Shown here: positions 128-9,045 of the stretch, in pieces
How positions within the stretch are numbered: the stretch's first letter is position 1
Layout: each line of letters begins with the position of its first letter
Assembly: GCF_021390325.1 (NCBI RefSeq)
Contig: NZ_JAJUWU010000013.1
Location: 30,074 to 94,073, forward strand
DNA from: Jiella avicenniae
Lineage (GTDB): Bacteria > Pseudomonadota > Alphaproteobacteria > Rhizobiales > Rhizobiaceae
Length of the DNA stretch: 64,000 nucleotides
Direction: 5' to 3'
Notes under the pieces: generated by a model
What the model was told of the DNA's origin: nothing
What the model saw: only the letters and a program-made list of their open reading frames with translations
Database searches by the model: none
Program-made: the position numbers and the translations under genes

Positions 128-269
128 CCGCAAGCGCCTGCGATATTTGCACACGAATTCGCTCGACACCCGTAGCAACCTTTCGCCGCCGCCGTGATAA
201 TGCGATGGAAGCTTGGGTGGGCGGGTGGGAAATCTCGCCGCAATGCGTCGTCAATGGGGGAACGTGTCG

Positions 270-2285
270 ATGAGTGACGCTGCGGTGCTTTCGTCTTCGG
301 CATCGCGTTCGATCACGCCGGACGTCGACCGCTCGGTCGGCGCGCTCTTGTCGATCGAGGATCTGTCGATCGAGTTCCGCTCCATGGCAGGCGTCACCAA
401 GGCGGTGACCGGCCTGTCGATGGCGATCGCGCCGGGCCGCACCGTCGCGCTGGTCGGCGAATCGGGGTCCGGCAAGTCGGTGACGTCCCAGGCGATCCTC
501 GGCATCCTGCCGAAGAACGGCGTGATCACCGCCGGGACGATCCTGTTTCGCGACCAAGAACTCGGCGAGGTGGACCTTGCGGCGATCCCCCGCGCGTCGC
601 CGAAATTCCGCTCGATCCGCGGCCGCTCCATCGCCATGGTCTTCCAGGAGCCGATGACGGCGTTTTCGCCGCTCCACACGCTCGGCGACCAGATCGGCGA
701 GATGGCGGCCATCCACCGCAAGGCGTCGAAGGCGGAAATCCGCGAGCTGACGATCGAAACCCTGCGGCTCGTCCGCTTTCCGGAGCCCGAGCGGGCGGTC
801 CGGATGTATCCGTTCGAACTGTCGGGCGGGCTGCGCCAGCGCGCGATGATCGCCATGGCGCTGATGTGCCGGCCGCCGCTCTTGATCGCCGACGAGCCGA
901 CGACCGCGCTCGACGTGACGCTGCAGGCGCAGATCCTCAAGCTCCTGAAGGACCTTCAGGGCGAGCTCGACATGGCGGTGCTCTTGATCACCCACGATCT
1001 CGGCGTCGTCGCCAATCTGGCCGAGGAGGTCGTGGTCATGCATCACGGCCGGGTGGTCGAATCGGGTCCCGCCCGGACCATCTTCACCAATCCCAGCCAT
1101 CCCTATCTCGTCTCGCTGATGAAGGCGGTGCCGGACTTTTCCGACGCCGATCGCCGCCGGCTGACGCCGATCCGCGAGATCAGGATCGACGCCGACGCCC
1201 TGGTCAAGCCGAAGGCGAGCGGTCCGAAGGGCGAGCCGCTGGTCGAGGCGCGGGGGCTTCAGAAGAGCTTTTCGCTGCGCGGCGACCGCCGCCTCGTCGG
1301 ACGGGCGCCGGCGCGGGTGATCCGGGCGCTCGCCGACGTCTCGCTGACGGTCCGGCGCGGCGAGTGCCTCGGCCTCGTCGGAGAATCCGGCTCCGGCAAG
1401 ACGACGCTGGCGAGAGCCCTGATGCGGGCCGTGCCCGTCGACGACGGCTCGATCGTGCTGCATGGCGAGGGGGAGGGCGGAACGGACGGGCCGGTCGATC
1501 TCGTCTCCGCCGACCGCGAGACGATGTTCAAGGTCCGCAAGCGGATGCAGTACATCTTCCAGGATCCCTTCTCCTCGCTCGACCCGCGGATGACCGTCGG
1601 GGCGATCCTGTCGGAACCGTTGGAGATCCACGATCTCTGCAAGCCGGCCGAGCGGCGCGAGCGGGTGGCGCGGCTGCTCGCCGCCGTCGGGCTCGATCCG
1701 AGCTTCGCCGGCCGCTATCCGCACAGCTTTTCCGGCGGGCAGCGCCAGCGCATCGGCATCGCGCGGGCGCTGGCGCTGGAGCCGGAAATCCTCATCTGCG
1801 ACGAGCCCGTGGCCGCCCTCGACGTTTCGGTCCAGGCGCAGATCCTCAATCTGCTGAAGGATCTGCAACGTCTGTCGGGCCTCACCTACGTGTTCATCAC
1901 CCACAATCTGGCGGTGGTGAACCACATCGCCGATCGTATCGTGGTCATGTGCGACGGGGCGATCGTCGAACTGGCGCCGCGGGCGGACCTCTTCCGCCGG
2001 CCCTTGCACCCCTACACCAAGCTTCTGATCGACGCGGTTCCCCATGCCGATCTCGACAGGCCGCTCGACTTCTCGCACCTGCCGGAAGCCGGGCTGATCG
2101 GGCGCCGGGACTGGCCGGCGCCGTTCACCGTCGCCGCCGACCAGCCGCTGCCGCCGCTCCTCGAGGCGAGGCCGGGCCATTTCGTGCGGGCCGCCGACCT
2201 TCGGTTCTTGAACCAGCGAGGCGATCGCGGCGGTGTCGCAGAGGCGGTCGCCGCCGCCGTGGCGGCCCTGGAGACGCCCGCATGA
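270..2285 (+). CDS. Double-NBD oligopeptide-type ABC transporter ATP-binding protein (YejF/DppDF-like)
   Basis: A 671-residue protein with two complete ABC ATPase domains in one chain, the layout of YejF and fused DppD-DppF proteins that energise peptide or microcin-C-type importers. The first domain has Walker A GESGSGKS (about residue 63), signature LSGGLRQRA and Walker B LLIADEP. The second has GESGSGKT (about 371), FSGGQRQRIG and ILICDEP. The ATG at 270 is chosen because GGGGGAA precedes it and the BrnT-side sequence upstream is non-conserved. No permease or substrate-binding gene lies beside it in the window: upstream is a divergent toxin gene, and downstream (ATGA overlap) is an unusual ABC protein. 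Its transport partners are therefore either encoded elsewhere or are the next gene. It could also be a cytosolic ATPase recruited to the signalling cluster. Confidence 0.85.
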   Translation: MSDAAVLSSSASRSITPDVDRSVGALLSIEDLSIEFRSMAGVTKAVTGLSMAIAPGRTVALVGESGSGKSVTSQAILGILPKNGVITAGTILFRDQELGEVDLAAIPRASPKFRSIRGRSIAMVFQEPMTAFSPLHTLGDQIGEMAAIHRKASKAEIRELTIETLRLVRFPEPERAVRMYPFELSGGLRQRAMIAMALMCRPPLLIADEPTTALDVTLQAQILKLLKDLQGELDMAVLLITHDLGVVANLAEEVVVMHHGRVVESGPARTIFTNPSHPYLVSLMKAVPDFSDADRRRLTPIREIRIDADALVKPKASGPKGEPLVEARGLQKSFSLRGDRRLVGRAPARVIRALADVSLTVRRGECLGLVGESGSGKTTLARALMRAVPVDDGSIVLHGEGEGGTDGPVDLVSADRETMFKVRKRMQYIFQDPFSSLDPRMTVGAILSEPLEIHDLCKPAERRERVARLLAAVGLDPSFAGRYPHSFSGGQRQRIGIARALALEPEILICDEPVAALDVSVQAQILNLLKDLQRLSGLTYVFITHNLAVVNHIADRIVVMCDGAIVELAPRADLFRRPLHPYTKLLIDAVPHADLDRPLDFSHLPEAGLIGRRDWPAPFTVAADQPLPPLLEARPGHFVRAADLRFLNQRGDRGGVAEAVAAAVAALETPA

Positions 2286-4996
2286 AGCCCGCCGACGAAC
2301 TCGACGAAAGCGTCTTTCGCTACGTCTGGCGCTTTACCCGCAGCCAGCAGCTCTGGCTGTTCGGGGTCCTCGCCGTCTCCCTGCCGCTCTACTATCTGAC
2401 GCTCGACCTGCCCAAGCGCATCGTCAACGGTCCGATCCAGGGCGAGTGGGCGGCCGGCGAGACCCAGACGCTGTTCGACTTCTCGATCCCCTTGCCGGGT
2501 TTTCTCGGCGGCGGGGAAATCGACGTCTTCGACGGGCTCGAACTCGACAGGCTGGGGGTGCTGATGGCGCTCTCCTTCGCCTTCCTGTTCTTCGTCATCG
2601 TCAACGGCCTCTTCAAGTTCTACATCTCGACCTACAAGGGCAAGCTCGGCGAGCGGCTGCTCCGGCGGCTGCGCTATCAGCTGGTCGATCGGGTGCTGCG
2701 CTTTCCCTCCGGCCGCTTCAAGCAGGTGCGCGGTTCCGAGATCGCCTCGATGATCAAGGACGAGACCGAGCCGGTCGGCGGATTCGGCGGCAGCGCCTTC
2801 GCCGATCCGGCGCTGTTGATGAGCCAGGCGCTGACGGCGCTGTTCTTCATCGTCCTGCAGAATTTCTGGCTCGGCCTCGTCGCCGCGACCATCGTGCTCG
2901 TCCAGATCGTGATGATCCCGCGCATGCGGCGGCGGCTGGTGGTCCTCGCCCGCTCCCGGCAGCTGACCGCCCGCATCCTGTCCGGACGCATCGGCGAGGT
3001 GGTGGAAGGCATCGCCTCGATCCGCACCAACGATACGTCGAACTACGAGCGGGCCGAACTCGGCGAGCGGCTCGGCCGGATCCTGAAGATCCGCTACGAC
3101 TTCTACCAGTGGAAGTTCTTCGTGAACTTTCTCAACAACCTGCTCGCCCAGATGACGCCGTTCATCTTCTATCTCGGCGGCGGCTATCTGGTCATCACCG
3201 GCAAGCTCGACATCGGCCAGCTGGTCGCCGTCATCGCCGCCTACAAGGACTTGCCGGCCCCCTTGAAGGAACTGATCGCCTGGGATCAGTACCGGGTCGA
3301 CGTGCAGTCGAAATACGCCCAGATCCGCGAGCAGTTCGTCATGTCGGATCTCGTCGCGGCGGACACCCAGAAGGTCAGCTTCGACGCGCCCCCGCGGCTC
3401 GAGGGCGAGGTGCTGGTGTCGGGCCTGAAGGTCAGCGACGACGCCGGCAACGAGCTCCTTTACCCGACGACGCTGAGGCTCTCGCCCGGGGAAACCGTCG
3501 CCCTCGTCGGCCCGCCGGGCGGTGGCGGGGAATATCTTGCCGAAGCGCTCGTGCGGCTCGTCCAGCCGGCCGGAGGGCGCGTCGCCTTTGCCGGCACGAC
3601 GCTCGATTCGATGCCGGACTTCATTCCCGGCCGGCGCCTCGGCTATTCGGCCTCGGGGCTTTTCCTGCCGCAGATGAGCGTCCGCGACGCCCTGACCTAC
3701 GGGCTCAAGCACGTGCCGATGCGCCGCGAGGAGCGCAGCGGCCGTGCCGAAGCCTCACGGCTGGAGGAAGCGCGGCTCTCCGGCAATCTCGACCTCGACA
3801 TCCGCGACGACTGGATCGACTACGAGGCGGCCGGCGTCACCGGACCGGAAACCCTTCCCACCCGGCTCGCCGAAGTTCTGGCGATCGTCGAGTTGCGATC
3901 GGAAATCGCCCGCTTCGGCCTGCGCGGCAAACTGCCGGAGGTCCTCGCCGACGGCGTATCCGACCAGATCCTCAGCGCCCGGGCGCGATTCCGCCAGCGG
4001 CTGATCGAGGGCGGCGACGAGGACTATTTCGAGAGCTTCGACAGGAGCCGCTATTCCGACTACGCCTCCGTCTTCGAAAATCTCGTCTTCGGCACCGCCG
4101 ATCCGGATGCCGATGCCGACCAGCCGCTTGCCGACCGGCCCTCGGTCAAGGCGGCGCTCGTGGCGAGCGGCCTCGACGACAAGCTGTTCGTCATGGGGCG
4201 GCAGATCGCCGAGACTTTGGTCGAGATCTTCGGTGACCTTTCCGCCGACAATCCGCTGCTCGACGACATCGACCTGATGTCCCCCGAAGACGTCGAGCGC
4301 TACCGGGCCGCGCTGCGCCGGATCGACGGCGAGGGCAAGCGCGAGGACAAGTACAAGGACAGGGACCGCCGCGCCTTCCAGCGCCTCGCCTTCGGCTATG
4401 TCGAGCCGCGGCACCGCCTGGGGCTGCTCGACGCCGGCCTGAAGCAGGCGATCGTCGCGGCGCGCGATCACTTTGCCGACGGTCTCGGTCCCGATCTCGC
4501 CGGGGCGGTGTTCCTTCACGATCCGGCCGGCGTGAACCGCGCCGCGAGCCTGCAGGACAACATCCTGTTCGGCCGCATCGTCACCCGCTATGCCGAGGCG
4601 CAGGGGCGGATCAACACGGTGCTCGCCGAGACGCTGCGCGAGACCGGCCTCTACGAGGTGGTTTTCGATCTCGGCCTCTCCTTCGACATCGGCTCTGGCG
4701 CCAAGCGGCTCGCCGCCAGCCAGCAGCAGAAGCTGACGCTCGCCCGGGCCCTGTTGAAGCGGCCCGATCTCCTCGTCCTCAACCGGCCGCTTTCGGCTCT
4801 CGACGGCGAGAGCCAGCGGCGCATCACCGCCGCCGTGCTGAAATCGCGCCAGGACCTCGGCGTCGAGCGCCAGACGATCGTCTGGGTCCTCTCCCATTCG
4901 GAACATGCCGATCTCTTCGATCGGCGGATCAGCTTCCGGGAGGGTCGCATGCAGGATCCGGAAAGCCGGGCCGCGACGCCGATGGAGGTGTCGTGA
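2282..4996 (+). CDS. ABC exporter-like membrane protein with degenerate, enlarged nucleotide-binding domain
   Basis: A 904-residue protein that overlaps the preceding stop by ATGA. The first ~340 residues are an ABC exporter-type membrane domain with several hydrophobic segments (for example LWLFGVLAVSLPLYY and FIFYLGGGYLVIT). The ATPase part is damaged: the Walker A position (about residue 410) reads GPPGGGGEYLAE and lacks the GK[ST]. The Walker B region (about 830) reads LLVLNRPLSALDG, with Asn for Asp and Arg for Glu. The signature region (AASQQQKLTLARALL, about 810) is recognisable. Roughly 400 residues separate Walker A from the signature instead of about 100, and this insert carries two copies of a S[VL]x[ED]NxxFG-like motif. 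It probably binds or hydrolyses no ATP itself. Neighbours are cyclic-nucleotide proteins, suggesting a signalling or scaffold role, or a partner for the upstream ATPase. Function is not established. Confidence 0.75.
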   Translation: MKPADELDESVFRYVWRFTRSQQLWLFGVLAVSLPLYYLTLDLPKRIVNGPIQGEWAAGETQTLFDFSIPLPGFLGGGEIDVFDGLELDRLGVLMALSFAFLFFVIVNGLFKFYISTYKGKLGERLLRRLRYQLVDRVLRFPSGRFKQVRGSEIASMIKDETEPVGGFGGSAFADPALLMSQALTALFFIVLQNFWLGLVAATIVLVQIVMIPRMRRRLVVLARSRQLTARILSGRIGEVVEGIASIRTNDTSNYERAELGERLGRILKIRYDFYQWKFFVNFLNNLLAQMTPFIFYLGGGYLVITGKLDIGQLVAVIAAYKDLPAPLKELIAWDQYRVDVQSKYAQIREQFVMSDLVAADTQKVSFDAPPRLEGEVLVSGLKVSDDAGNELLYPTTLRLSPGETVALVGPPGGGGEYLAEALVRLVQPAGGRVAFAGTTLDSMPDFIPGRRLGYSASGLFLPQMSVRDALTYGLKHVPMRREERSGRAEASRLEEARLSGNLDLDIRDDWIDYEAAGVTGPETLPTRLAEVLAIVELRSEIARFGLRGKLPEVLADGVSDQILSARARFRQRLIEGGDEDYFESFDRSRYSDYASVFENLVFGTADPDADADQPLADRPSVKAALVASGLDDKLFVMGRQIAETLVEIFGDLSADNPLLDDIDLMSPEDVERYRAALRRIDGEGKREDKYKDRDRRAFQRLAFGYVEPRHRLGLLDAGLKQAIVAARDHFADGLGPDLAGAVFLHDPAGVNRAASLQDNILFGRIVTRYAEAQGRINTVLAETLRETGLYEVVFDLGLSFDIGSGAKRLAASQQQKLTLARALLKRPDLLVLNRPLSALDGESQRRITAAVLKSRQDLGVERQTIVWVLSHSEHADLFDRRISFREGRMQDPESRAATPMEVS

Positions 4997-5219
4997 CCGC
5001 CGCCCGGCTGCGACGCCAGCCAAAGCTCCGGGGCCGTGCTATTGATGCGGCATCCGCCGCCGTGCCAAGTTCGGGGTGCGCAAATGTCGCAGCCTCGTCG
5101 TCGCGTTTCGGGACGTTCGGAACGCGTGGCTCACGAGTTGTGATCACTGCCGGCATGCAAACTGAAATCGCGAACGGATTGTCCGCACTGCCGTCGTCGT
5201 TACGCAAGGATCGAAGACG

Positions 5220-5690
5220 ATGCTTCTGAAATCCGAGATCGACCTCCTGAGGGCCGTGCCGCTGTTCGCCGGCATCGAGCCCAGTCGGCTGAAGCTGATC
5301 GCCTACACCGCCGAGACGGTGATGTATCGCGAGGGCCAGGTGCTCTGCCGGCAGGGCGAACAGGGGGATGCCGCCTTCGTCCTGATGGACGGCGAGGCGG
5401 ACGTCTCGATCGCGGCCGAGACCGGCGACTTCGTCGTGGCCAGACTGAAGACCGGCGACGTCGTCGGCGAGATCTCGATCCTCTGCGACGTGCCGCGCAC
5501 CGCGACGGTGACCGCCAAGACGCCCGTCTCGGCGCTCAGGGTTCGCAAGGACGCCTTCCTGCAGCTGGTGCGGCAGTTCCCGGAAGTGGCGGCCGAAGTG
5601 ATGCGCGGGCTGGCGGAACGGCTGAGCCACACCAATGCCGAGCTGGTTCGCGCCCGCGACCTCGCCGCCGGCAAGGGCGGAGCCAGATGA
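5220..5690 (+). CDS. Single-domain cyclic-nucleotide-binding protein (CNB/cNMP-binding)
   Basis: A 156-residue protein that is essentially one cyclic-nucleotide-binding beta-barrel plus a C-terminal helix. The phosphate-binding cassette is well preserved: GEISILCDVPRTATVTA (about residues 82-98), with the Glu that contacts the ribose and the Arg that contacts the cyclic phosphate. There is no DNA-binding helix-turn-helix, so it is not a Crp-type regulator. It more likely reports cNMP levels to a protein partner. The ATG at 5220 follows AAGGA by about ten bases. The 223 bp before it (4997-5219) hold no convincing gene and may contain a promoter. The stop overlaps the next start by ATGA, so translation with the hydrolase is probably coupled. 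Confidence 0.85.
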   Translation: MLLKSEIDLLRAVPLFAGIEPSRLKLIAYTAETVMYREGQVLCRQGEQGDAAFVLMDGEADVSIAAETGDFVVARLKTGDVVGEISILCDVPRTATVTAKTPVSALRVRKDAFLQLVRQFPEVAAEVMRGLAERLSHTNAELVRARDLAAGKGGAR

Positions 5691-6514
5691 GCCGTTTCGA
5701 ACTGACGGTCTGGGGCGCGCGCGGCTCGATCCCGGCACCGGCCGCCGTCAATACCCGCTATGGCAGCGACACGAGCTGCGTCGAGTTGCGCTGCGGCGAA
5801 AGGGTGATCTTTCTCGACGCCGGCACCGGCATCGTCGCCGCCGGCCGCAAGCTCTACGAGGAGAAGCGGGTCGACGATTTCGACGTCCTTCTGACCCACT
5901 GCCATTTCGACCACGTCATGGGCCTGCCCTTCCTGATCCCGCTCTACAAGGACCACGTCTCGGCGCGGATCTTCGCCGGCCATCTCCTCGACGGAACCAC
6001 CTGCCGGAACATGGTCGCCCGGTTCATGTGCCCGCCCTATTTTCCGGTGACGCCGAAACAGTTTGCGGCGAAGATCGGCTATCGCGACTTCCGACCGCCG
6101 GACGAGATCGATCTCGGCGACGGCATCTGCGTGAAGACCTTCCGGTTGAACCATCCGAACGGGGCGGTGGGCTACCGGGTGGATTTCGATGGCCGCTCGC
6201 TCTGCTACATCACCGACACCGAGCACGAGGTCGGAACGATCGATCCGGCGCTGGTCGAGTTCATCGCCGGCGCCGAGGTGATGATCTACGATTCGACCTA
6301 TACGGACGAGGACTTCGCCCGCTACGTCGGTTTCGGCCATTCGACCTGGCAGCAGGGCGTCCGCCTCTGCCGGGCCGCCGGCGTGGAACGGTTCGTCGCC
6401 TTCCATCACGACGTCTCGCGGACCGACGGCTGGCTGGAGAGGCTGGAGGCCGAGATGCGGGCCGTGTTTCCCGGCGCATACGTCGCCAGCACCGGCCTGA
6501 CGCTGTCGGTCTGA
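5687..6514 (+). CDS. Metallo-beta-lactamase-fold hydrolase, possible cyclic-nucleotide phosphodiesterase
   Basis: A 275-residue single-domain MBL-fold enzyme. The opening LTVWGARGSIPAP, the metal-binding HCHFDH motif (about residue 71), a later D in YITDTEHE and a histidine in AFHHD give a complete dinuclear metal site. Proteins of this subfamily, with the GxRGSxP start, are often annotated as MBL-fold hydrolases or class II-like cyclic-nucleotide phosphodiesterases, but substrates are rarely proven. It lies between a cyclic-nucleotide receptor (ATGA overlap) and a nucleotide cyclase. Degradation of the cyclase product is the natural inference from this context, though not from the active site alone. 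Confidence 0.8.
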   Translation: MSRFELTVWGARGSIPAPAAVNTRYGSDTSCVELRCGERVIFLDAGTGIVAAGRKLYEEKRVDDFDVLLTHCHFDHVMGLPFLIPLYKDHVSARIFAGHLLDGTTCRNMVARFMCPPYFPVTPKQFAAKIGYRDFRPPDEIDLGDGICVKTFRLNHPNGAVGYRVDFDGRSLCYITDTEHEVGTIDPALVEFIAGAEVMIYDSTYTDEDFARYVGFGHSTWQQGVRLCRAAGVERFVAFHHDVSRTDGWLERLEAEMRAVFPGAYVASTGLTLSV

Positions 6515-6665
6515 CCGCAGGGCCCGGGCGGACGGCAGGGCCGCAATCGGCGCCTCGTCTTGAAAAGACCGCCATGGCTCTTCAGTTGATGTTGGATCGG
6601 ACCGCCACCCCGAGAGGAACCCGGCGGTTCGCTTCGGGCATTTCTGCAACGAAAGGGCTGGCGTC

Positions 6666-7895
6666 ATGGGGCTTGCCGATCAGGTCAACGAATGGCTGCT
6701 CTCCGAGGCGCTCGGCGAGCCGAAGCTCGAAGACATCTTCTATCGCCTGTGCATCAAGCTGCTCGGCATCGGCGTGCCGATCTCGCGGGCACGGCTGAAC
6801 TGGCCGACGCTGCATCCCCTGTTTCGCGCCGAGATGATCTCCTGGGACCGCCACGACAGGGTGGCGACGCTCGATCATTTCCACCATCAGGACTCCAACA
6901 CCGAAGCCTGGCAGGCGAGCCCGCTCAAGCACATGCTGGAGAACGACCTGAAGATCCTGCGCCGGCGGCTGGCCGGGCCCGGCAGGCTCACCGACTTCCG
7001 GCTGCTGGAGGAACTCGCCGCACACGGCTTCACGGACTATCTGGCGCTTCGCACGGCATTCAAGCAGCCCGGCAAGGGGACGGAATTGCGGGGAACCGGC
7101 ATCATCGTGATCTGGGCCTGCGACCGCGACGGCGGGTTCACCGAGGAGGATCTCTCCGTCCTGCAGGAAATCCAGCGCAGCCTGGCGCTGGTCTGCAAGT
7201 CGATCATCCAGCAGCAGATCACCACCAACATCGTCGAGGCCTATCTCGGCCGGCAGGCCGGCCGCAGCGTGCTCGAGGGCAACATCCGCCTCGGCGACGG
7301 CGCGACGACCAAGGCGCTGGTCTGGTATTCCGACCTGCGCGACTCCACCCATCTGACGGCGACGCTTTCCAGCGACGACTATCTGGCGCTCCTCAACGAC
7401 TATTTCGAATGCGCCGCCCGGCCGGCCATCCTTGCCGGCGGCGAGGTTCTGGCCTTCATCGGCGATGCCGTCCTGATCGTCTTTCCGATGGAGACGCGGG
7501 CCGAGGGCGAGGCCGTGCTCCGCAAGGTGCTCGACGCCCTATCGCAATCCTTCGACATGCGCGACGGCGTCAACGCCACGCGCCGTGCCGCGGGCCTCGC
7601 CGCGATCAACTTCGGCATCGGCCTCAACATCGGCAAGGTGGTGTTCGGCAATATCGGCGTACCCGAGCGCCTCGCCTTCACCGTCATCGGTCCGACCGTG
7701 ACGGAGGTCGAGCGCATCGAGAAGCTGACCAAGACGATGGATGCCAACGTTCTCGCCAGCAAGCGCGTCGCCGATCTCGTGCCCGGGCGTTGGCGCTCGG
7801 TCGGCTCCCATGCCCTCGAGGGCGTCGACGAGCCGATGGAACTCTTCATGCCGCTGAACTTGGCGGCAGTGCCGCTGAAGGCGGCGGCCGAGTAA
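6666..7895 (+). CDS. Class III adenylate/guanylate cyclase-like protein with atypical active site
   Basis: A 409-residue cytosolic protein: an N-terminal sensor-like region of about 200 residues, then a class III cyclase homology domain (about 215-390). Both metal-binding Asp residues are present (WYSDLRDST and FIGDAVLIVF), and the transition-state Arg is present in the TEVERIEKLTK segment. Three positions that are usually conserved differ: the substrate-specifying Lys before FIGD is Ala (VLAFIGD), the Asp/Thr of the IGDTVN motif is Pro (VIGPTVT), and the Asn of NxxxR is Thr. Activity may therefore be low, regulated or on an unusual nucleotide. The ATG at 6666 has an AAGGG ahead. It is the last gene of the cyclic-nucleotide cluster, and an insertion element sits one base behind its TAA. 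Confidence 0.85.
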   Translation: MGLADQVNEWLLSEALGEPKLEDIFYRLCIKLLGIGVPISRARLNWPTLHPLFRAEMISWDRHDRVATLDHFHHQDSNTEAWQASPLKHMLENDLKILRRRLAGPGRLTDFRLLEELAAHGFTDYLALRTAFKQPGKGTELRGTGIIVIWACDRDGGFTEEDLSVLQEIQRSLALVCKSIIQQQITTNIVEAYLGRQAGRSVLEGNIRLGDGATTKALVWYSDLRDSTHLTATLSSDDYLALLNDYFECAARPAILAGGEVLAFIGDAVLIVFPMETRAEGEAVLRKVLDALSQSFDMRDGVNATRRAAGLAAINFGIGLNIGKVVFGNIGVPERLAFTVIGPTVTEVERIEKLTKTMDANVLASKRVADLVPGRWRSVGSHALEGVDEPMELFMPLNLAAVPLKAAAE

Positions 7896-7981
7896 TACCA
7901 ACCGCCCCGAATTCTGACTCTGGGTGGATTCCCACGGCGCTGAAAGTCTGACTCTCTGTGATTTGCGACAGGGAGGCCCCG

Positions 7982-8491
7982 ATGGCAGGGATCGAGATCA
8001 CGCGTTTGGAGATGAGTTCATCCGAGCTTCGGGCGGCTTCGGCGAAGGCGCCGAACGTGAAGGCGGCGCGGCGGATGCTGGCTCTGGCGATGGTGCTGGA
8101 TGGGGTCGACCGCAAGACGGCGGCCGAAACCTGCGGCATGGATCGCCAGACGCTTCGCGACTGGGTTCACCGTTACAACGCAGATGGATTGGCCGGCCTG
8201 GTGAACCGCAGCTATGCCGGCCCGAAACGGCGGCTGAACCCGGAGAACCTCGCCGAACTGGCAGCGATCGTGGAGGCGGGACCCGATCCCCAAAAGGACG
8301 GGGTCGTGCGCTGGCGCCAGAGCGATCTGCAGCGGGTGATCGAAGAGCGCTTCGGTGTCGTCCTGACGGAACGGGCTGTCGGCAAGCAGTTGGCGTATCT
8401 CGGCTTCAAGCGCCTTTCCGTTCGCGCCCAGCATCCCAAGTCCGACCCCGCAGCACAGGAGGCTTTTAAAAAAGCTTCTGCGAAACCGTGA
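7982..8491 (+). CDS. IS630 transposase, N-terminal frame (orfA)
   Basis: The 169-residue frame contains a winged helix-turn-helix/homeodomain-like DNA-binding region (AAETCGMDRQTLRDWVHRYN, then the second HTH EERFGVVLTERAVGKQL), typical of the N-terminal half of IS630 transposases. The ATG at 7982 has GGGAGG five bases ahead, and a GTG at 7958 is a weaker alternative. The frame runs into TGA just after a run of six A (8468-8473). A -1 shift on this run would join it to orfB as ...AFKK-SFCETVTAAL..., giving one transposase of about 350 residues. Confidence 0.85.
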   Translation: MAGIEITRLEMSSSELRAASAKAPNVKAARRMLALAMVLDGVDRKTAAETCGMDRQTLRDWVHRYNADGLAGLVNRSYAGPKRRLNPENLAELAAIVEAGPDPQKDGVVRWRQSDLQRVIEERFGVVLTERAVGKQLAYLGFKRLSVRAQHPKSDPAAQEAFKKASAKP

Positions 8492-9045
8492 CGGCCGCCT
8501 TGCCGGAAGCGGCAAGGGACAAGCCGATCGAGATCTGGTTCCAGGATGAAGCCCGGGTCGGCCAGCAGGGCACGCTGACCCGCGTCTGGGCACGGCGAGG
8601 CACGAGACCACGCGGCCCGCGCGACCGACGCTACAAATGGGCGTATATCTTCGGGGCTGTATGCCCCACCCGGGCAACGAGCGCGGCGCTCGTCCTTCCC
8701 CGGGCCAACGCCGAGATGCTGCAATTGCATCTCGACGAGATCGGCCGACAGGTCGCCGAAGACGCCCATGCCGTCCTCGTCTGGGACGGTGCAGGCTATC
8801 ACAAGTCGGACGAGCTGGACGTTCCCGGCAACATCACCATCGTCGAACTGCCGCCATACGCCCCCGAACTCAACCCGGTCGAGAACGTCTGGCAGTATCT
8901 GCGCCAGAACAAGCTCGCGATCACCGTCTTCGACGACTATGCCCACATCGTCGACGTCTGCTGCGATGCATGGACATTCTTCGCACGAGACCCGGCAACC
9001 GTCGCATCAATAACCCGAAGGTCATGGACACAGATCAAGGGTTAG
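8488..9045 (+). CDS. IS630 transposase, catalytic frame (orfB)
   Basis: The 185-residue DDE catalytic half. The triad is seen as WFQDEAR (first Asp), VLVWDGAGYH (second Asp) and PELNPVENVW (Glu). The GTG at 8488 overlaps the orfA stop, but translation is more likely through a -1 frameshift on the A6 run at 8468-8473, a mechanism used by some IS630 members. No internal stop is present, so the element looks intact. Confidence 0.85.
   Translation: MTAALPEAARDKPIEIWFQDEARVGQQGTLTRVWARRGTRPRGPRDRRYKWAYIFGAVCPTRATSAALVLPRANAEMLQLHLDEIGRQVAEDAHAVLVWDGAGYHKSDELDVPGNITIVELPPYAPELNPVENVWQYLRQNKLAITVFDDYAHIVDVCCDAWTFFARDPATVASITRRSWTQIKG

Follow-up and report, generated by a model that had tools for sequence, protein, structure and literature searches.

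Within a 64,000-nucleotide stretch of the genome of Jiella avicenniae (contig NZ_JAJUWU010000013.1, positions 30,074 to 94,073; hereafter the window), a gene encoding a protein shaped like an ATP-binding cassette (ABC) exporter is followed by a gene for a stand-alone cyclic-nucleotide-binding (CNB) protein, and downstream of these lie genes for a metallo-beta-lactamase (MBL)-fold hydrolase and a class III nucleotidyl-cyclase-like protein (Table 1). The ABC and CNB genes form the unit that is conserved at this locus, and the motifs of the ABC protein indicate an exporter that has lost the residues needed to use ATP. All four reading frames are open and lie on the plus strand. A preliminary description of the window had presented them as four genes on one strand that are partly coupled through ATGA overlaps, and this is confirmed: one overlap joins yejF and the ABC gene at 2282-2285, and another joins the CNB and MBL genes at 5687-5690. 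Gaps of 223 bases and 151 bases separate the ABC gene from the CNB gene and the MBL gene from the cyclase gene, respectively. The ABC protein shares 92% identity with its counterpart in Jiella pacifica, of the family Aurantimonadaceae in the order Hyphomicrobiales. A promoter scan of positions 4900-8200 gave no signal above chance, and Rfam and tRNA scans returned no matches.

Table 1. Genes, motifs and repeats at the locus (NBD, nucleotide-binding domain)
Feature	Position in window	Strand	Remarks
YejF-type dual ATPase	213..2285	+	Start uncertain
Pseudo-ABC exporter, 904 aa	2282..4996	+	PF00664 and part of PF00005; type IV exporter membrane domain, then repeat-enlarged NBD
Destroyed Walker A GPPGGGGE, residues 410-417	3509..3532	+	Lys replaced by Gly, Ser/Thr by Glu
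NBD repeat R1, residues 452-586	3635..4039	+	Q-loop/helical segment; hhalign
NBD repeat R2, residues 586-740	4037..4501	+	hhalign
NBD repeat R3, residues 740-892	4499..4957	+	hhalign; holds signature and Walker B remnants
CNB protein, stand-alone, 156 aa	5220..5690	+	PF00027
Intact phosphate-binding cassette VVGEISILCDVPRTATV (Glu84, Arg93)	5460..5510	+	In the CNB protein
MBL-fold hydrolase, 275 aa	5687..6514	+	PF12706
Class III nucleotidyl-cyclase-like protein, 409 aa	6666..7895	+	PF00211
IS630-like transposase pair, two open reading frames (helix-turn-helix and DDE_3)	7958-9045		Directly 3' of the cyclase gene

An exporter fold with destroyed ATPase motifs

The membrane domain of the ABC protein matches PF00664 with 64.3 bits (cut-off 28), and its predicted structure retains the type IV exporter fold, including that of the NBD. 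The closest solved structures include subunits of TmrAB and TM287/288, and SUR2 is also among the matches. The preliminary description was right to call the protein exporter-like as far as membrane domain and fold are concerned, but it missed that the ATPase motifs are destroyed. In addition to the altered Walker A motif, repeat R3 contains a degenerate signature, LAASQ (residues 810-814), and a Walker B remnant, LLVLNR (residues 830-835), in which Asp is replaced by Asn and the catalytic Glu by Arg. The Walker A Lys is missing in 30 of 30 aligned rows and in all 222 of the nearest relatives, a set that is mostly Hyphomicrobiales and also includes some metagenome-assembled genomes of other or unstated order and one gammaproteobacterial sequence. 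Among these 222 proteins the Walker A Ser/Thr position is occupied by Glu in 194 and Asp in 19, the Walker B Asp position by Asn in 216 and Asp in 3, and the catalytic Glu position by Arg in 195 and by Glu in none. Since the replacing residues are themselves conserved, the motifs have not decayed at random. Each of the seven other PF00664 proteins encoded in the J. avicenniae genome has an intact P-loop. Judged by its motifs, the window protein is a pseudo-exporter that is ATP-dead in its lineage. Invariant columns are concentrated in the membrane half, with 52 up to residue 352 and 18 beyond it. The alignment of the family (A1) omits L040, the fusion protein L058 and some close Jiella rows, all of which are included in the 30-row counts.

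The NBD is enlarged by about 270 residues which consist of internal repeats. Comparison with hhalign gave E values of 4.2e-11 for R2 with R3, 3.6e-6 for R1 with R3 and 8e-6 for R1 with R2, while control comparisons with the membrane domain gave 0.02 or worse. In all three comparisons the 40 column shuffles stayed below the score of the real alignment; for R2 with R3 that score was 68.9, against a shuffled maximum of 20.3. The repeats align over only part of each segment (25 to 62 columns), and each has an ENLLFG-like stretch of the Q-loop/helical region. At locus L040 (genome G001) a frameshift breaks the ABC gene into pieces at 4770-5516 and 5530-7452, owing to a sequencing error or a real loss; its neighbours give long matches.

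The CNB protein and its link to the pseudo-exporter

The CNB protein matches PF00027 with 74.7 bits (cut-off 27.5), and Pfam detected no DNA-binding or other output domain in its 156 residues, for which reason its identification as a Crp/Fnr transcription factor was rejected. Its closest solved relatives include kinase regulatory domains and the bacterial channel SthK. The Gly-Glu pair and the Arg of the phosphate-binding cassette are present in 30 of 30 aligned rows, residues G83, E84 and R93 are invariant in 24 of 24 aligned rows, and in an alignment covering the class, window included, the Glu is found in 45 of 46 rows and the Arg in 46 of 46. The earlier portrayal of a stand-alone CNB protein with an intact cassette and no output domain therefore stands.

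Neighbourhoods were compared in two samples. One comprises 99 loci, namely 80 named loci (the best 80 of 548), 18 further loci and the window, with the close relatives L031-L041 excluded; the other comprises 51 of the 131 alphaproteobacterial genomes with a match, about one per family, where families with a short contig or a partial match (e.g. G131 and G384) were skipped. At 29 of 29 loci from the same order and at 80 of the 80 named loci, the ABC gene is immediately followed by a CNB gene or fused to it. It is next to or fused to the ABC gene at all 98 related loci besides the window, with a single fusion (L058), and at 48 of the 51 class loci, fused in five (45 of 51 lie near under a stricter spacing rule). 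The J. avicenniae genome of 5.17 Mb has only eight PF00027 and six PF00211 matches; with so few PF00027 proteins in the genome, the presence of one at all 98 related loci puts the link between ABC and CNB genes far above chance. The ABC and CNB genes are thus the real unit of the locus, and conservation of the pair agrees with the earlier suggestion that the partner of the CNB protein is the ABC protein, which is very probably so. Among open-access papers, as judged by titles and the openings of abstracts, none was found that takes the CNB partner or the dead ATPase as its topic. A second short CNB reading frame (174 aa open frame) occurs elsewhere in the genome (G000:C34:51534-51794).

Distribution of the family and course of motif loss

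At an E value of 1e-80 the ABC family was found in 131 of 385 genomes of the class, representing 87 of 277 genera, and in 27 of 398 genomes of the phylum, all 27 of which belong to Alphaproteobacteria. A contig of the gammaproteobacterium Plasticicumulans lactativorans (L079), which carries the ABC and CNB genes together with genes for an Fe-S cyclase and a DUF3095 protein, is a case of transfer or contamination.

The class sample refuted the idea that Walker A is dead throughout the class and narrowed the claim to the lineage of the window. Among 52 rows (51 class loci and the window), the Walker A Lys position holds Lys in 33, Arg in 16, Gly in one (the window), Pro in one and a gap in one. 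The residue after this position is Glu or Asp in 42 of the 52 rows, whereas only five rows retain the Walker B Asp. In an unrooted tree of the ABC proteins, built after removal of the motif columns and without the broken protein L234, 28 rows that have neither of Lys and Arg at this position, the window among them, group in a single clade, and one more such row, the stray L199, falls elsewhere. Four more distant members from the same order (L054, L056, L057 and L059) have Arg at the Lys position and fall outside this clade. The simplest reading of these patterns puts the loss of the Mg-binding residues, for the most part, early and that of the Lys and the catalytic Glu later, in the lineage of the window.

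Glycan genes and YejF around the pair

The neighbours that recur most often around the pair are glycosyltransferases. The counts for the 99 loci come from a recount with profiles, since clustering had lost real genes in the resolution of overlaps (e.g. the MBL gene at L062); the profiles were derived from the same neighbour clusters. A GT4 gene is present at 76 of the 99 loci, a GT28 gene at 69 and both at 68 (67 by clustering), while a deacetylase-like gene occurs at 37 (31 by clustering) and a UDP-sugar dehydrogenase gene at 17. The deacetylase-like family has no Pfam match and is named after an annotation in Sinorhizobium meliloti. At the 51 class loci GT28 and GT4 occur together in 39, a YejF-like ATPase in 34 and a deacetylase-like protein in 28. 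In the J. avicenniae genome a GT28-GT4-GT28 array ends 0.5 kb upstream of the window. The transferase genes are co-directional with the ABC gene at many Rhizobiales loci and divergent from it at most class loci, so the association has survived rearrangement. The locus in the window is therefore predicted to be a glycan locus, a context that the preliminary description missed.

Membrane proteins were surveyed with a crude hydropathy count for families present in at least eight loci. Across the class loci the pseudo-exporter is the only recurrent protein with at least four predicted membrane segments, save an FtsK-like housekeeping protein. At the 99 loci the other such proteins are YejB- and YejE-like permeases, two cyclase families and the products of a few lineage-specific genes. 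A YejF-like ATPase lies near the ABC gene at 43 of the 99 loci, a count into which the family model mixes some other ABC ATPases (its low-scoring matches were not relied on), and other YejABEF subunits recur in many of the loci that carry it. The class sample contains 30 YejF-like matches above 300 bits. Two P-loops and two LSGGQ motifs are found in 27 of them, two P-loops and one LSGGQ in one, and one of each in the remaining two, which are cut pieces. YejF-like matches of 570-630 aa were considered as an active exporter half and rejected; with two P-loops in 28 of 30, they are YejF-type dual ATPases.

Two further features of the surroundings were recorded. A gene for a histidine-phosphatase-like protein (named by eye) is situated between GT28 and GT4 at about 31 of the 51 class loci, some 6.7 kb from the ABC gene. 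At L121, L123, L125, L130 and L133, genes for a tRNA-synthetase-like protein, a DUF1839 protein and a glycoside hydrolase family 2 protein lie upstream of the ABC gene, and this trio occupies the place that the GT28-GT4-GT28 array has in many relatives.

The cyclase and the MBL-fold hydrolase

Assignment of the cyclase to class III is supported by the PF00211 match, the presence of both metal-binding Asp residues (in SDLRDST and FIGDAV) and retention of the Arg. The preliminary description overlooked, however, that the purine-specifying Lys and Asp are replaced by Ala and Pro, and the transition-state Asn by Thr. The window cyclase may be weak or inactive, and given the absence of the Asn and the purine-specifying residues, cyclic nucleotide (cNMP) may come from another cyclase. 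Two of the six PF00211 matches in the genome lie within 8 kb of the ABC gene. A membrane cyclase (L141:9351-10808), encoded upstream of the window beyond the GT28-GT4-GT28 array and on the other strand, keeps the purine Lys and the Asn and has Lys in place of the catalytic Arg; the defects of the two cyclases are complementary, so that a heterodimer is conceivable. Another class III cyclase gene in the genome (G000:C6:29053-30279) is about 0.5 kb from a reading frame on the opposite strand that contains a CNB domain.

The MBL-fold hydrolase has the metal-binding motif HCHFDH (HxHxDH), which occurs in 25 of 25 aligned rows. This much agrees with its earlier classification as a cNMP phosphodiesterase type, but the match to the corresponding model, NF041851, reached 49.6 bits against a cut-off of 400, and the protein also falls below the cut-off of the RNase Z model.

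An MBL gene is found near the ABC gene at 55 of the 99 loci (53 by clustering) and at two of the 51 class loci, and a class III cyclase of any of three families at 50 (49 by clustering) and four, respectively. All four kinds of gene, with any of the three linked cyclase families, occur together at 44 of the 99 loci, and the exact set of four at 26 (24 by clustering). The idea of a conserved cyclase-MBL cassette is weakened by the class sample. The expectation that the four families occur together in other genomes is accordingly borne out for the ABC-CNB pair but for the exact set at only about a quarter of the loci, and the claim of a self-contained set of genes to make, sense and degrade cNMP is not supported, such a set being present in just a part of the near relatives.

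A cyclase with a Fer2 domain is present at 22 of the 99 loci. It resembles, at the level of domain make-up at which the two were compared, CyaC of S. meliloti, which is described in the part of PMC10463352 used here as a cyclase that responds to redox state and carries hemes and a 2Fe-2S cluster. A DUF3095 protein is encoded at 21 of the 99 loci; members of this family (L095:16225-17382 and relatives) contain D-IVGST and GGDG motifs and look like class III cyclases by eye. No open-access paper that names DUF3095 was found.

Apparent counterparts in Sinorhizobium and Agrobacterium

The annotated gene order on pSymB of S. meliloti starts with GT4, deacetylase, MBL, DUF3095, nucleotide-sugar dehydrogenase, cyclase and polysaccharide lyase genes. 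It continues with four genes for a Yej-type ABC importer, an unlisted gap, a GT4 gene, another unlisted gap, and genes for a methyltransferase, the ABC protein, the CNB protein and an FkbM methyltransferase. The CNB relative is annotated there as a Crp/Fnr family transcriptional regulator. Statements from the literature in this section are drawn from portions of the papers cited. Genes of this region named in PMC5498481 are smb21248 (aminotransferase), smb21247 (deacetylase), smb21243 (sulfotransferase) and smb21242 (glycosyltransferase). These anchors fit the pSymB record at one gene per number, which places the ABC and CNB genes near smb21267-21268, and we infer from gene order and product names that the pair lies within smb21252-smb21271. 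Nine genes between smb21252 and smb21271 are reported to be needed for a polysaccharide that protects against phazolicin, and the minimal inhibitory concentration of phazolicin falls from 1.47 to 0.18 in smb21252 and smb21265 mutants and to 0.74 in a cyaA mutant (PMC10128002).

In Agrobacterium, transposon insertions in Atu2577 (a 'putative ABC exporter'), in Atu2582 and in three glycosyltransferase genes make a yejABEF mutant fitter (PMC9790009). The glycan cluster also has a UDP-GlcNAc dehydrogenase gene, insertion in which likewise benefits this mutant, and resistance to phenazines is said to depend on the glycan (PMC9790009). On the basis of product names and gene order we infer that Atu2577 is a member of the pseudo-exporter family. 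The smb21252-smb21271 region and the Agrobacterium glycan cluster with Atu2577/Atu2582/Atu2583 apparently belong, by gene order, to the same locus family as the window, and glycosyltransferase, sugar-nucleotide dehydrogenase, deacetylase, ABC, CNB, MBL and cyclase genes are the kinds held in common. Linked GT28 and GT4 genes, a trait of the phazolicin/phenazine glycan clusters, are present in J. avicenniae as the array upstream of the window. In the parts of the S. meliloti and Agrobacterium papers used here, the CNB partner and the dead ATPase motifs are not mentioned and the ABC protein appears only as a putative exporter. Agrobacterium salinitolerans (L123), A. rubi (L125) and the loci L130 and L133 (titled Rhizobiales bacterium and Rhizobium sp.) have genes for the ABC protein, CNB protein, MBL hydrolase, Fe-S cyclase, a methyltransferase, a sugar-nucleotide dehydrogenase and GT4, in this order. 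A. cavarae (L121) has only the first four of these, and the arrangement in A. vitis (L098) is different.

Proposed mechanism and alternatives

The occurrence of the pseudo-exporter beside a CNB protein, usually near glycosyltransferases, suggests that the pair constitutes a cNMP-controlled step in the building of a sugar coat. The reading we propose is that of a surface-glycan locus in which an exporter-shaped, ATP-dead membrane protein is switched by the neighbouring CNB protein, itself a predicted cNMP-binding protein; we give it slightly less than an even chance of being right. In part of one order the cyclases that supply cyclic nucleotide would be those of the locus itself, whereas other lineages would draw on cyclases encoded elsewhere in the genome. 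The cNMP-loaded CNB protein would then dock on the dead NBDs and alter the state of the membrane dimer, which might open, act as a scaffold or permit passage of a glycan (or a lipid-linked precursor) made by the co-encoded transferases. Where the MBL hydrolase is encoded, it would remove the nucleotide. In an evolutionary extension, which we consider unlikely, a lineage of ABC exporters gave up ATP to become a cNMP-gated membrane portal for surface glycan, and control passed from ATP binding to the CNB protein; the loss would have gone in steps, of the Mg-binding residues in most of the class and then of the Lys and Glu in the lineage of the window.

Several observations weigh against these proposals. 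Nucleotide binding, contact between the ABC and CNB proteins and movement of a glycan are predictions from sequence and model. The Walker A Lys is kept in 33 of the 51 class members and the catalytic Glu in 33 of the 52 rows, and L231 has all four of the Lys, Ser, Asp and Glu, so that nucleotide may still be bound or turned over by some relatives; with an unrooted tree, the sequence in which the motifs were lost is a probable one. The five class-level ABC-CNB fusions belong to one clade that also has an unfused member, and thus reflect few events. The GT28 and GT4 pair is missing within the stretch examined at 31 of the 99 loci, some of which are on short contigs, and at 12 of the 51 class loci, and the scarcity of MBL and cyclase genes across the class counts in the same direction. 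Gene identities in S. meliloti and Agrobacterium come from gene order and product names and not from locus-tagged sequences, the passages of PMC10128002 do not state which nine genes of smb21252-smb21271 count, and the effect of cyaA on phazolicin sensitivity is small and could act via transcription.

Alternatively, the pseudo-exporter could pair with an active half encoded elsewhere, as the degenerate subunit of an ordinary heterodimeric ABC exporter that is driven by ATP and only tuned by the CNB protein. The presence of TmrAB and TM287/288 among the best structural matches and the seven intact PF00664 proteins of the genome are compatible with this. The degenerate half of known heterodimeric exporters usually still binds ATP, however, whereas the pseudo-exporter has lost both Walker A and Walker B, and BLASTP with the seven own-genome exporters (E 1e-20) found no full-length exporter half with an intact P-loop at any of the 99 or 51 loci that could be a heterodimer partner inside the locus. 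We regard a degenerate half as quite unlikely. Less likely again is that the protein serves purely as a scaffold for GT28 and GT4 at the membrane, with the CNB protein signalling to the transferases and nothing passing through the membrane domain. The two transferases recur without any recurrent flippase- or polymerase-like membrane protein at the class loci, and the dead NBDs with their conserved repeat expansion could be docking surfaces, but the membrane half is the most constrained part of the protein, which suggests that it is more than an anchor. YejF, an active-looking dual ATPase, might also lend the pseudo-exporter ATP-driven motion, since its gene overlaps the ABC start codon in the window and a YejF-like ATPase is often nearby. 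It belongs, however, to the YejABEF importer, whose other subunits recur at many of the same loci, and with an NBD of its own the pseudo-exporter is not expected to offer YejF a free docking site; of all the explanations this seems the least probable.

Two further alternatives concern the CNB protein and the cyclase. The CNB protein might be a transcription or general signalling factor that lies beside the ABC gene only because the two share regulation. Its S. meliloti relative does carry the Crp/Fnr annotation, and cAMP and Clr alter the expression of neighbouring polysaccharide genes in that bacterium (PMC5498481, in part). The window protein, on the other hand, is without a Pfam DNA-binding domain and fusions of ABC and CNB proteins exist, which makes this explanation improbable. 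The module proposed in the preliminary description was a self-contained cassette for making, sensing and degrading cNMP with the ABC protein as its membrane output and no tie to a glycan. The joint occurrence of the four kinds of gene at many of the 99 loci favours it, but across the class MBL and cyclase genes are nearly gone while the glycan genes remain, and the cyclase in the window lacks key catalytic residues. Of that proposal the ABC-CNB partnership survives, and the self-contained cassette is decidedly improbable.

Relation to known systems and significance

ABC transporters are defined by the coupling of ATP hydrolysis to movement. The pseudo-exporter shares its membrane domain, NBD fold and domain order with type IV ABC exporters such as MsbA, TM287/288, TmrAB and PCAT1, and differs from them in lacking the Walker A Lys, the Walker B Asp and the catalytic Glu, in its degenerate signature, in the threefold occurrence of an NBD segment and in its length of about 900 aa. 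CFTR and SUR, which serve as channel or channel regulator, likewise use the ABC exporter fold beyond ordinary pumping, a kinship that was compared at the superfamily level only; both are eukaryotic full transporters that still bind ATP. The CNB protein belongs to the same family and has the same cassette as the CNB-gated channels SthK and MloK1 and the regulatory domains of PKA and PKG, which are among its best solved matches and from which its family differs in being a separate protein of 156 aa, as in the window, or fused to the pseudo-exporter. It is also a weak match (E 1.2e-14; 54.4 bits against a cut-off of 161) to TIGR03896, a model for bacteriocin-type transport-associated CNB proteins which, judging from its name, are presumably tied to an export system.

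An exporter family that spans a bacterial class and in one large lineage has lost the residues for ATP, while the fold and a near-invariant CNB partner are kept, would be a natural experiment in what the fold is capable of without ATP. The pair also suggests that cyclic nucleotides act on a bacterial surface polysaccharide by a direct, post-translational route. Two genes, one now filed as an ABC transporter and its neighbour filed as a Crp/Fnr regulator, thereby gain a role that can be tested. According to the portions of the work on apparent relatives cited above, such a polysaccharide shields rhizobia and agrobacteria from a peptide antibiotic and from phenazines.

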